This document shows positions 34,438 through 39,021 of a stretch of 56,657 bases of DNA, piece after piece. Each line of letters opens with the position of its first letter. The stretch's first letter is position 1. The DNA is from Bacteroidia bacterium (GTDB taxonomy: Bacteria > Bacteroidota > Bacteroidia > Bacteroidales > VadinHA17). The notes beneath the pieces are model-generated. The model ran no database searches. It was given only the letters and a program-made list of their open reading frames with translations, and was not told the origin of the DNA. The translations under genes were made by a program, and so were the position numbers. The DNA is taken from contig JAPLDY010000152.1 of the NCBI GenBank assembly GCA_026391595.1, forward strand, positions 1 to 56,657, written 5' to 3'.

Positions 34438-35677
34438 CAAGCATGCTCAGCACGAGCAATTTATTCTTTTCGAATCTTGACAGGTTCTCCTCTGAAACAG
34501 GTTCAACAGGTGGCGCTTCGACGCTCAGCGGATCGACAGGGGATCCATTCCTGTAAAACCTGAAATCGAGATGCGGACCTGTTGAAAGGCCGCTGCTTCC
34601 TACATAACCAATGATATCTCCCTGCTTAACCTGCGCACCTGCATAAACCCCTTTCCCGAAACCGCTTAGATGAAGATATGCAGTGGAATAGACACTGTTA
34701 TGGGTAATCCTCACAATCCTTCCTGATCCATTCTCAGTTCCGGCAAAAGTCACTTTGCCATCACCGATAGCCTCAACAGGAGTGCCTATGGGTGCCGCAT
34801 AATCTACACCGAAATGAGGCCTTCTGATCCTGAGTATCGGGTGAAGCCGGCCAGAAGAGAACCGGGAACTTATCCTTGAGAACCTAAGAGGAGCTTTGAG
34901 AAATGCCTTCCTCATGCTGTTACCGTCACCATCGAAGAAGGTCTCCTTGCCATCCTGGATGAAAGGTATGGCAGTAATGGTCTTACCAGCCCATGTGAAT
35001 TGCGCTCCATATATTTTGCCTATCCTGAGAGATTCATCATCTATAAATAGCTCTTCGTAGAACACCTTGTAGCTGTCTCCCTTCTGCAGACTGAAAAAAT
35101 CAACGGTCCAGGCAAAAATTTCTGACAATTCACCCGGAAGCTCCGGATGCATGCCTGCCGCCATCATGGATTCCCAGAGAGATGTCTCTATGGTACCTGA
35201 TGAATACCTTATGACCTTCCTGATCTCTTTCCTGTAAGGGGTTATATTCAGCGAGTCGTTGAAGCTGAAGATATAGCTTAAAGTGGGATCATGTTCATAT
35301 ACCAGATACCCGGCTCTTGCAACAGAATCTGTATCGCAGAAAAGGGTATAGTGATTTCCCGACCTGATTTTTCTGACATCAAAGACAGAATCTGAATTTT
35401 TAACTACCTGGTCTATCTCCTGCATGGTAATACCGTGCCCGAGGAGAATTTCCGAAAGAAATCCATTTCGTTTTATGTGCCCCGGAATGAGTGTGAACTG
35501 GTCTGAAGGGATTCCGAGAGTGAGTACCGGTTTCTTGATCTGGACTGCTGCCGTGTCAGTTACAGGTGGCTGTATATTTAAGTTATCCTTCTGAAAGTAC
35601 CTGCATGAAGAGGCTAAAAGCAACAACAATACCGGAATGATGAACTTTGCCCGTGAAAACATTATCGTCCGCATCAA
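34427..35677 (-). CDS. M23-family metallopeptidase (LytM domain) lipoprotein
   Basis: Lipobox [45 protein letters not shown]. Confidence 0.93.
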
Positions 35678-38337
35678 TTTTTAACAACTATGTTCACGAT
35701 CCGGTTGGGAACCACAATTATGTCGGACATTTTTCCGGTTGAGAGCCATTTTTGTGCTCTTTCATCCGCAAGCACTATTCTGGCTATCTCCTCCTTGCCC
35801 ATATTTACGGGCAGCTCTATCTTGAACCTTAGCTTGCCGTTGAATGAAACCGGGTATTCGAAAGTATCCTCTTTAAGATACGTTTCATTTACAACAGGCC
35901 ACGGTTCATAGGCAAGTGTTCTGGCATGTCCCTGTTGCTGCCATAACTCTTCAGCTATATGTGGTGCAAATGGAGATAATATTTTTGTAAAGATATTTAC
36001 AGTCTCTTTTGTGACTTTTCCCTTTTTCATAGCAAGGTTAAGGAAAATCATCATCGCTGAAATTGCAGTGTTGAACCTGAGATTCTCAATATCGCCTTCC
36101 ACCTTCTTTATTGCCTGGTGGAGACCTTTAAGTATTTCAGGATTCTCATCTGCTGCAACAATATTCCCGGGATTCGAGAAGAACCTGTATGTTCTTCCAA
36201 GGAAGTTGAAGACACCTTTCACACCTTTGTCATCCCATGGCTTTGTAACATCAAGCGGACCCATAAACATTTCATATAATCTTAAAGAGTCTGCCCCATA
36301 TCTTAGAACAACATCATCAGGATTGACGACGTTTTTTAGGGATTTCGACATTTTTGCCACTATCTGCCTCACTTCCATACCTGTTTCGCTGTTGTAGAAT
36401 TTGCCGTCGCGTTCCTCAATAATGTCGGCAGCGACTTTTCCACCGGCCTCATTTTCATAGGCAAAAGCGAGGATCATTCCCTGGTTGAAAAGTTTCTTAT
36501 AAGGTTCATCAGTGGAGACGATACCAAGGTCGAACAGCACCATATGCCAGAACCGGCTGTAGAGAAGATGAAGAACAGCATGCTCTGCGCCTCCAATATA
36601 GAGATCCACCGGCATCCAGTATTTTTCCTTTGCAGTATCAAATATCAGCTTATCATTATGAGGATCTATATAACGCAGGTAATACCAGCACGAACCTGCC
36701 CATTGAGGCATTGTGTTCGTTTCACGCCTGCCCCTGCGGCCAGAATTATCTGTCACAGTAAGCCATTCGGTCGCATTTGCCAGCGGAGATTCTCCTGATT
36801 CTCCGGGAAGATATTTTTCAAGCTGAGGCAGTTCAAGAGGAAGCTCTTTTTCATCGATCAGGGATATTTCACCATCTTCCCAGTGGATCACCGGGAATGG
36901 CTCGCCCCAGTATCGCTGTCTGCTGAATAGCCAGTCGCGAAGCTTATAATTTACTTTTTCCCTGCCCAGGTTCGTTGACTCGAGCCATGAAATTATCTTT
37001 GCGATTCCTGTTTCTTTATTCAGACCGTTGATGTCGATGCCGGTCGCCATATCGGATGAATTTATATATGTACCATCTTCTGTCCAGCACTCTTCACCCT
37101 TTAATATTCTCTCTTTCTGATTATGATCAGATACATCAGGATCCTGGATGCAAACGACAGGCAGGTCAAATTTCTTTGCAAATTCAAAGTCGCGGGTGTC
37201 ATGTGCCGGAACAGCCATGATAGCTCCGGTGCCGTAGCCCGTAAGAACATAATCGGCTACCCAAATTTGTAACTTCTTATGATTCACAGGATTAATTGCA
37301 TAGCGTCCGGTAAAGACACCGGTTTTTTCCTTGGCAAGGTCGGTGCGGTCGAGATCTGACTTAAGCGAAGCTGCCTTTATATAGTCATTTACATCTTTCC
37401 TTCTTTCATCAGTGGTTATGGTTACCGTCAGTGAATGTTCCGGAGCGATAACCATATAGGTTGCTCCGAAAAGAGTATCCGGACGAGTTGTAAAAACTGT
37501 CAATTTCTGGTTCAGCCCTTCAACAGCGAAATCGACTTCAGCGCCTGTAGAGCGGCCGATCCAGTTACGCTGCATGTCTTTTATTCCTTCCGGCCAGTCG
37601 ACATTATCAATACCTGACAGGAGTCTTTCGGCATAAAGAGGTATACGCAGCATCCACTGTTTGAGGTTTTTCTTTTCAACCTTGTTGCCGCATTTTTCGT
37701 GCGACCCGTCGAAGAGCACTTCTTCGTTGGCGCATACTATCCTGCAGCTCGGGCACCACCATACCTGGGCATTGTCATAATAGGCAAGCCTTTTTGAGTC
37801 GATGTATTTTGTAACCTCCTTTTTTCCCTGTTTCTTTATTTCCTCCGGGATGATAAACTCTGATATCGGTCTCCCTTTCTGGAGTTTTTCGTCAAACCAG
37901 GTATTGTATAATTTTATAAAGATCCACTGCGTCCATTTATAGTATTTGGGATCGGTTGTGTTGATCTCCCTCTCCCAGTCGTAGCTGAGGCCCAGTTCCT
38001 TTATCTGGCGCCTGAAAGTATCGCAATTGTTTTTTGTTGTGACGGAAGGATGTGTTCCCGTCTGGATAGCGTACTGCTCAGCAGGCAATCCGAATGCGTC
38101 CCAGCCCATGGGGTGCAGCACATTAAAACCCTTCATTCTTTTATACCTGCTGAATATATCGGTTGCCGTATAGCCTTCGGGATGTCCGACATGAAGACCG
38201 GCTCCTGAAGGGTACGGGTACATATCGAGTACATAGCATTTTTTTGGATTAGTCAGGTATTCCGGAGTTCTGAAAGTCTTATTCTCCTCCCAGTATTTCT
38301 GCCATTTTTTCTCGATATCGGTGAAGTTGTATTCCAT
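35674..38337 (-). CDS. leuS: Leucyl-tRNA synthetase
   Basis: [25 protein letters not shown]-type region, [14 protein letters not shown]. Confidence 0.98.
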
Positions 38338-38365
38338 TTTAGGAAGTGTAAATTATTGGTTTATA

Positions 38366-38400
38366 GAAGACGGAAGACCGAAGACCGAAGACAGAAGATT
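38366..38400 (+). repeat. Left 35-nt terminal inverted repeat of five heptamers (GAAGACG GAAGACC GAAGACC GAAGACA GAAGATT)
   Basis: Direct reading; inverted partner at 38831-38865 with 3 mismatches in 35. Confidence 0.93.
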
Positions 38401-38461
38401 GACGAACGAAGTGAGGAAATTCCGCAGAGCGGAACCGAAGAAAGAAGATTTAAGTGGTATA

Positions 38462-38821
38462 TCATTTAATTTTGTTTTTAAATGCAATCATCATATTCAT
38501 TAAATTAAAAGCATACTCATATGATTTATTGAAATCCATTTCGGAAATATAAATTCTCCTGTGTGCTTTGTGTAAACAAGTAACAACCTCGGCAAGTGAC
38601 CGTATTGCAATGCTCATAAATCTTTTTTGTTCAGGATCTGACTGTCCAATAGAACCTTCTGAAATATTTAATGAGATGGAATCAACCGCCCGACGGATTT
38701 GAGAGGTCAGATTATACAACTCATCTTTGGGGAACTGCTTAGATAAAGTAAAAATCGTTTCACCATAATCCATTGATTTATGCCAGATAACAAGATTCTC
38801 AAATTTAAATTTACCATCCAT
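38462..38821 (-). CDS. Four-helix-bundle protein (23S rRNA intervening-sequence-protein / Avd-like fold)
   Basis: FENLVIWHKSMDYGETIFTLSKQFPKDELYNLTSQIRRAVDSISLNISEGSIGQSDPEQKRFMSIAIRSLAEVVTCL, characteristic of this family. Confidence 0.93.
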   Translation of the reverse strand: MDGKFKFENLVIWHKSMDYGETIFTLSKQFPKDELYNLTSQIRRAVDSISLNISEGSIGQSDPEQKRFMSIAIRSLAEVVTCLHKAHRRIYISEMDFNKSYEYAFNLMNMMIAFKNKIK

Positions 38822-38830
38822 TGTATTAAC

Positions 38831-38865
38831 AAACTTCCGTCTTCGGTCTTCGGTCTTCCATCTTC
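38831..38865 (-). repeat. Right 35-nt terminal inverted repeat of heptamers (reverse complement GAAGATG GAAGACC GAAGACC GAAGACG GAAGTTT)
   Basis: Direct reading. Confidence 0.93.
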
Positions 38866-38900
38866 TTAAGGCTGCGAAATTAGAAAATCTTTAGGAAATA

Positions 38901-38941: not shown

Positions 38942-39014
38942 GGTCCCGTAGTTCAATGGATAGAATGGCAGATTCCGGTTCTGTTGGTTGAGAGTTCGAA
39001 TCTCTCCGGGATCA
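38942..39014 (+). tRNA. tRNA-Arg (anticodon CCG)
   Basis: Cloverleaf by hand: acceptor GGTCCCG/CGGGATC, anticodon stem GCAGA/TCTGT with loop TTCCGGT, T arm GAGAG-TTCGAAT-CTCTC. Confidence 0.95.
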
Positions 39015-39021
39015 CATATCA

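Follow-up and report, generated by a model that had tools for sequence, protein, structure and literature searches.

A four-helix-bundle gene between inverted heptamer arrays in the leuS leader of a Bacteroidia bacterium: probable member of a dispersed family of intervening-sequence-type elements

The window, by which we mean the whole 56,657-nucleotide stretch of Bacteroidia bacterium DNA that was analyzed, contains a unit at positions 38366 to 38865 in which a gene for a small four-helix-bundle protein lies between two inverted arrays of heptamers. The features of this region are as follows.

35674 to 38337, minus strand: leuS, the host gene downstream of the unit and on the same strand (context)
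38366 to 38400, no strand assigned: left arm of five GAAGACN heptamers; the 3' arm relative to the gene, pyrimidine-rich in the sense RNA, with orthologous arms in relatives
38401 to 38436, plus strand: dispersed accessory module with the hairpin TTCCGC-AGA-GCGGAA (38420 to 38434); not a general part of the element
38462 to 38821, minus strand: gene for the 119-amino-acid four-helix-bundle protein, PF05635/TIGR02436 (profile matches, AlphaFold2 fold)
38831 to 38865, no strand assigned: right arm of inverted heptamers; the 5' arm relative to the gene, purine-rich in the sense RNA
38872 to 38899, minus strand: genus-wide conserved sequence, reverse complement CCAAAGATTTTCTATTTTCGCA, read as the leuS promoter region (promoter function inferred)
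38942 to 39015, plus strand: tRNA-Arg(CCG), divergent neighbor (context)

When the coordinates and pairing were recomputed, they agreed with an earlier note on this DNA, which had described two 35-nucleotide inverted arms with 3 mismatches around a 119-amino-acid open reading frame (ORF) next to a tRNA gene, here tRNA-Arg(CCG). The arm pairing extends to 38365-38401 and 38830-38866, giving 37 nucleotides that are 92% complementary, with 3 mismatches. The inverted-repeat score at this locus is 29.5, compared to a shuffled maximum of 13, and no arrays of this type were found in dinucleotide-shuffled windows; the arms are beyond chance expectation. In the predicted fold of the sense RNA (-143.8 kcal/mol, z of -6.6), a terminal stem of approximately 33 bp closes the whole unit, and a search of the unit against Rfam returned no family except tRNAs. 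Two details of the earlier description are correct for this unit but not for such units in general: its arms are indeed made of GAAGACC-type heptamers (GAAGACN), but each unit has its own repeat, and the internal hairpin is present but is not a regular component. The module that carries the hairpin, TTGACGAACGAAGTGAGGAAATTCCGCNGAGCGGAAC, is a dispersed repeat tied to GAAGAC arrays in the host genome and is also present on host contigs C158 and C14 without a four-helix-bundle gene. At both of these sites (L228, 5951-6050, on C158 and L017, 320-400, on C14), GAAGAC arrays occur with the hairpin module TTGACGAACGAAGTGAGGAAATTCCGC, and the C158 copy adjoins what appears by eye to be a HicA/HicB pair.

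In profile searches, the 119-amino-acid ORF matches PF05635 with 104.6 bits (cutoff, 33.8) and TIGR02436 with 99 bits (cutoff, 24), and these searches revealed neither a nuclease nor a transposase domain. The AlphaFold2 model of the protein, built from an alignment of window and locus sequences that excluded plasmid sequences, has a pLDDT of 94.8, and its fold matches those of 2GSC (Foldseek TM of 0.92) and 2RLD. More remote fold matches are the Avd chains of diversity-generating retroelement (DGR) complexes (4DWL and 8UB7; TM of about 0.79), the best-matching of which share only 6 to 8% identity with the window protein, while a relative of this protein matches the PHROG Avd family (E value of 2.9e-13). 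We propose that the protein is a basic homolog of the Avd of DGR ribonucleoproteins. Close pairs of PF05635 genes have dN/dS values of 0.05 to 0.10, which indicates that the protein is kept functional by purifying selection; for the protein of the Coxiella intervening sequence (IVS), expression in vivo has been reported as improbable (PMC4990558). Membership in a defense system and a phage origin were considered and rejected, as PADLOC gave no match and a tblastn search against 50,697 phage records also returned none.

We found that inverted arrays are strongly associated with genes of this family, using an inverted-arm score computed over the gaps around each gene. In the genus, 30 of 44 PF05635 genes have a score of at least 16, compared to 4 of 76 other ORFs (p = 1.6e-13), and at least 2 of these 4 control ORFs are immediate neighbors of a PF05635 gene, with which they have a gap in common. 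In the sample from more than 20 phyla, the same threshold was reached at 41 of 78 PF05635 loci and at 12 of 1,629 control positions within the same loci; when the ORF-gap test was applied to the other phyla, 17 of 33 PF05635 genes and 5 of 57 control ORFs were positive. The cross-phylum sample consisted of 80 named loci, not including Xanthomonas XCC0516, and its duplicates (L020 and L021, which are identical, and L002 and L007, which lie on one contig) leave the contrasts unaffected. Array density is 1.64 per kb up to 400 bp from the gene and 0.11 per kb at distances of more than 1 kb; because much of the distant DNA is coding, the ORF-gap test gives the fairer comparison. Clear inverted arms are missing from about one-third of the PF05635 genes in the genus and from about half of those elsewhere; some of these genes have incomplete flanks, and some arrays have possibly decayed. 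The enrichment of inverted arrays around PF05635 that was put forward as a check in the earlier note is thus present both within the genus and across phyla, and the dispersed family it had envisaged is borne out, with arms around most PF05635 genes of the genus and around roughly half of those in the wider sample.

The host genome itself has nine PF05635 matches, most with inverted short-repeat arrays on both sides (two adjacent matches on contig C79, which align to consecutive portions of the profile, probably belong to a single gene). The family is present in 53 of 58 genomes of the genus, in variable numbers that reach 18 matches per genome. Judged by sequence comparison, the window unit is one member of a dispersed family that spans many bacterial phyla and includes insertions in rRNA genes.

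The repeat sequence changes from locus to locus, while the two arms of one element are alike. The repeat is usually a heptamer, with a best repeat length of 7 in 51 upstream arms, 8 in 15, and 9 in 6. Host repeat types include GAAGACC at the window and nine-mers of GTCTTGCAG at loci L004 and L005, with AATTTGAA, GCACAGG, and GGGAGAG elsewhere. We rejected GAAGACC as a universal end, since the repeat is locus-specific, and also a universal core of the heptamers, for which TAGT, ACAG, and CAGT were just mildly enriched. Purines predominate in most arms on the 5' side of the gene, and G exceeds C in 77 of 86 loci. The genes are in the sense orientation to codirectional neighbors by 66 to 15 (40 to 3 across phyla and 26 to 12 in the genus), a bias that is also expected of an ordinary operon gene but not of an unconstrained mobile insertion. 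At the window, the unit is placed between the leuS ATG and the conserved putative promoter sequence at 38872-38899, which would put it in the leuS 5' leader in the sense orientation, given that the promoter function is inferred.

To define what the arrays delimit, we compared related units in different contexts and orthologous sites with and without a unit. Two Atribacterota units (L170 and L192) are 91% identical over 469 bp, their likeness ends at the outer TAGTGAA arrays, and their neighboring genes differ. In the host genome, the units L004 and L005 have 84% identity across 550 bp, a stretch that runs from one array to the other, and no similarity beyond it. In both pairs, homology runs out at or within the outer arrays amid unrelated flanks, and inverted ends delimit the DNA that moved, as in elements of the MITE or IS type. 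Empty orthologous sites, a comparison suggested in the earlier note, were found in the leuS gap of some relatives, in the TraM gap of Nostoc plasmids (occupied in L120 and L121, empty in L210 and L211), and between cmr2 and cmr3 of Picosynechococcus (occupied in PCC 7003, empty in PCC 7002). In L209, the Nostoc TraM gap is filled by a unit that has the GGGAACA-type arms of the occupied sites but no gene, and the empty Nostoc site in C057 carries no array. Units of this build are thus present within conjugation and CRISPR operons of cyanobacteria. No target-site duplication was evident at the aligned occupied and empty pairs.

The layout of the window unit resembles that of a 23S rRNA IVS with an S23p ORF, as in Coxiella, Leptospira, and Azospirillum: a PF05635 ORF in an inverted-repeat stem, a size of about 430 to 550 nucleotides, and sense transcription. 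In an Azospirillum lipoferum 23S rRNA gene (L128; Rfam RF02541), we found a PF05635 ORF flanked on both sides by inverted arrays of a 7-mer; the location is assigned to the helix-45 region by a motif match. In the Coxiella IVS, RNase III cleaves a 28-bp terminal stem, and the GACAGAT heptamer is present in two or three copies depending on the strain, an observation that the authors did not generalize (Warrier et al., PMC4990558). Heptamers in the arm are thus shared by Coxiella, Azospirillum, and the window unit, which also has the terminal inverted-repeat stem enclosing an S23p ORF that is typical of an IVS. In contrast to an rRNA IVS, the window unit lies in an mRNA leader, between leuS and tRNA-Arg, and not inside an rRNA gene. 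The stem-enclosing-ORF layout proposed in the earlier note therefore recurs, arms included, in a real Azospirillum 23S rRNA IVS, and its reading of the unit is supported in the main; we class the unit as an IVS element of a dispersed kind that lies outside rRNA and ends in heptamer arrays. In the literature within reach of our search, which left out most subscription journals and bioRxiv, we did not find the general array architecture, the locus-specific repeats, or the spread beyond rRNA described.

We conclude, with a probability of about 0.72, that the window unit is a dispersed, mobile element of the IVS type that carries one Avd-like gene between inverted arrays. In this reading, the arrays form part of the element itself and define its limits, as the unit comparisons show, and the element sits in the sense orientation in transcribed sequence, here the leuS 5' leader. 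Its RNA copy is predicted to form a long terminal stem with the purine-rich strand 5' and the ORF in the loop. From the precedent in Coxiella, we infer that RNase III cleaves the stem and that the host RNA would in this way tolerate the insertion. The arrays gain and lose whole repeat units. Inverted pairs and solo arrays that lack the gene are most plausibly, by inference, remnants of decay or passively derived copies. The protein probably binds nucleic acid of the arm or stem and so promotes spread or maintenance, an inference for which there are no binding data. The route by which copies might move is not shown, and movement does not track RT or Y1 transposase genes of the same genome. Against this conclusion stand the lack of any evident target-site duplication or of a transposition event seen in real time, the PF05635 genes without clear arms, the solo arrays that mostly have neither the gene nor an inverted partner, the improbable expression reported for the Coxiella protein, and the possibility that the leuS-site unit was vertically inherited.

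A bolder version, which we offer only tentatively, is that PF05635 proteins are the agents behind heptamer repeats, to which they are lineage-matched as RNA or single-stranded DNA, and that the unit represents a new transposase-free mobile class of which rRNA IVSs are a special case. Heptamers are the most abundant short tandem repeats of prokaryotic intergenic DNA, and the SPADE survey (PMC6344855) states that their function is without a clear clue; unexplained examples are GGGAATC in Xanthomonas, GGGGATT in Nostoc, and TAACTGA in Beggiatoaceae. The arrays described here are like these repeats in having the same period, an intergenic position, and partly inverted pairs (PMC4692102), and text searches of those heptamer-repeat papers did not find a link to a PF05635 or S23 gene.

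It is also possible, although we consider it doubtful, that, as in REPIN/RAYT systems, the protein recognizes its repeat in trans and seeds solo arrays through the genome, with the gene-bearing unit as master and solo arrays as non-autonomous copies. The unit shares with REPIN/RAYT systems and MITEs a small size, inverted ends, and dispersed gene-less derivatives. Our array statistics for the host rest on 182 kb sampled from its genome, where we found 15 solo arrays, and sampled solo arrays have repeats in common with gene-bearing units. A nearly self-complementary 9-bp repeat, GTCNTGCAG, forms many dispersed host arrays (111 matches per strand, on contigs such as C20, C45, C50, C56, C64, C72, and C113), compared to only 2 gene-bearing units seen with it in this genome. 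GAAGNCC arrays are more numerous in genomes that have the GAAGACC gene-bearing leuS unit (7 versus 53 genomes; p = 1.3e-4), a comparison in which the unit's own arms are counted, relatedness is uncorrected, and the direction of cause is not settled. However, five genomes without the gene at the leuS site have 11 to 24 GAAGNCC matches each, solo arrays are mostly direct and not inverted pairs, and the protein has no detected nuclease or transposase domain. Unlike REPIN/RAYT systems and MITEs, the unit has no HUH or DDE transposase, a repeat that is not conserved among units, and no visible target duplication; the repeat-associated Y1 HUH transposase that characterizes REPIN/RAYT is not matched here, as no heptamer arrays lie beside the intact Y1 gene. 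Among 29 GAAGNCC sites examined in the genus, 28 had no gene in the locus and 24 had no inverted partner. The earlier note would have counted heptamers that occur genome-wide without a link to this family as a refutation; this applies in part on the side of the arrays and fails on the side of the genes.

We think it quite unlikely that the arrays came first, arising as tandem repeats by an unrelated process, with a gene cassette inserting into them or persisting there. Gene-less solo arrays are common, and the gene-less leuS leaders of relatives hold several different arrays (CAATCCG, CGCTCAC, TTCAGCG, and a 9-mer), which would fit such an origin. On the other hand, insertion into one direct array would give direct and not inverted flanks, and the arms keep the same polarity with respect to the gene and accompany it when it appears elsewhere.

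A still weaker, disfavored explanation is that the gene is simply a resident one without mobility, and that the repeats beside it are low-complexity DNA of a regulatory or terminator-like kind that formed in place. In its favor, six examined genomes carry an orthologous unit at leuS, in which each arm has from 4 to more than 20 heptamers (in a seventh, G011, a PF05635 gene adjoins leuS by coordinates), the protein is strongly constrained, and a comparison of G028 and G049 shows that heptamer number was altered in place. At leuS, the remaining relatives have nothing or gene-less arrays with the same or a different repeat, including gene-less inverted pairs in G028, G049, and G006. In a weakly supported LeuS tree, gene presence requires 3 changes, no improvement on shuffled labels, so gains and losses cannot be distinguished, and the leuS-site unit, common to several species, may be just an old unit that was passed on vertically and lost in places. 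A resident gene does not account for the empty sites, the near-identical units in unrelated contexts, the variable number of up to 18 copies per genome, or the insertion within 23S rRNA.

Least likely of all is a retroelement or Avd-type accessory mobilized by an RT (of a DGR or group II intron) or a Y1 transposase of the same genome, for which the Avd homology and the sense-orientation bias would speak, and which we rejected since RVT_1 (PF00078) has no match in the host genome and is missing from 30 of the 53 PF05635-bearing genomes, PF05635 copy number in 58 genomes follows neither RT (rho of 0.19, p = 0.15) nor Y1 (rho of 0.14, p = 0.29), five gene-bearing genomes have neither enzyme, and the one intact host Y1 gene has its own 58-nucleotide repeats and no heptamer arrays alongside. 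This null result does not exclude an enzyme of another family. The window protein has the same fold as DGR Avd (4DWL and 8UB7), whereas its host genome has no RT and the boundaries of its unit are heptamer arrays. The host Y1_Tnp gene (L235, 1911-2258, on contig C261) lies beside five spaced copies of the 58-nucleotide repeat, which contain AACCGCTACGCGGTATTAGAAAAACAGGG, and the palindrome ACCGCTACGCGGT is present here and in the leuS gap of a relative (L095). This locus resembles a REP/RAYT system that is distinct from the heptamer units.

Three questions meet in these elements: the role of the S23/four-helix-bundle protein, the origin of rRNA IVSs, and the abundance of heptamer tandem repeats. 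Because PF05635 is strongly linked to inverted heptamer arrays across phyla, all three can be tested in hosts that grow in culture, and the widespread, unexplained heptamer repeats of bacteria gain a testable partner gene.

We also observed four-helix-bundle genes within type III-B cmr and type I-D cas operons, on a plasmid of Picosynechococcus PCC 7003 (L119), on pANA02 of Anabaena 90 (L122), and on pPg_01 of Pseudanabaena galeata (L214); arms were checked in the first two, and relatives lack the gene at the site. Such genes inside CRISPR operons can therefore be element insertions and not CRISPR components, and they may be miscounted as CRISPR-associated. A 3,318-bp locus (L020/L021) is 100% identical in genomes G042 and G031, which are classed as different species, suggesting either recent transfer or cross-contamination of assemblies. 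In the cas6-cas4 gap of Dolichospermum UHCC 0315A (L213), a MITE-like element with GTAGGTTGGGTT inverted ends occupies the site of the Anabaena 90 unit, so this gap has been colonized by two unrelated elements.
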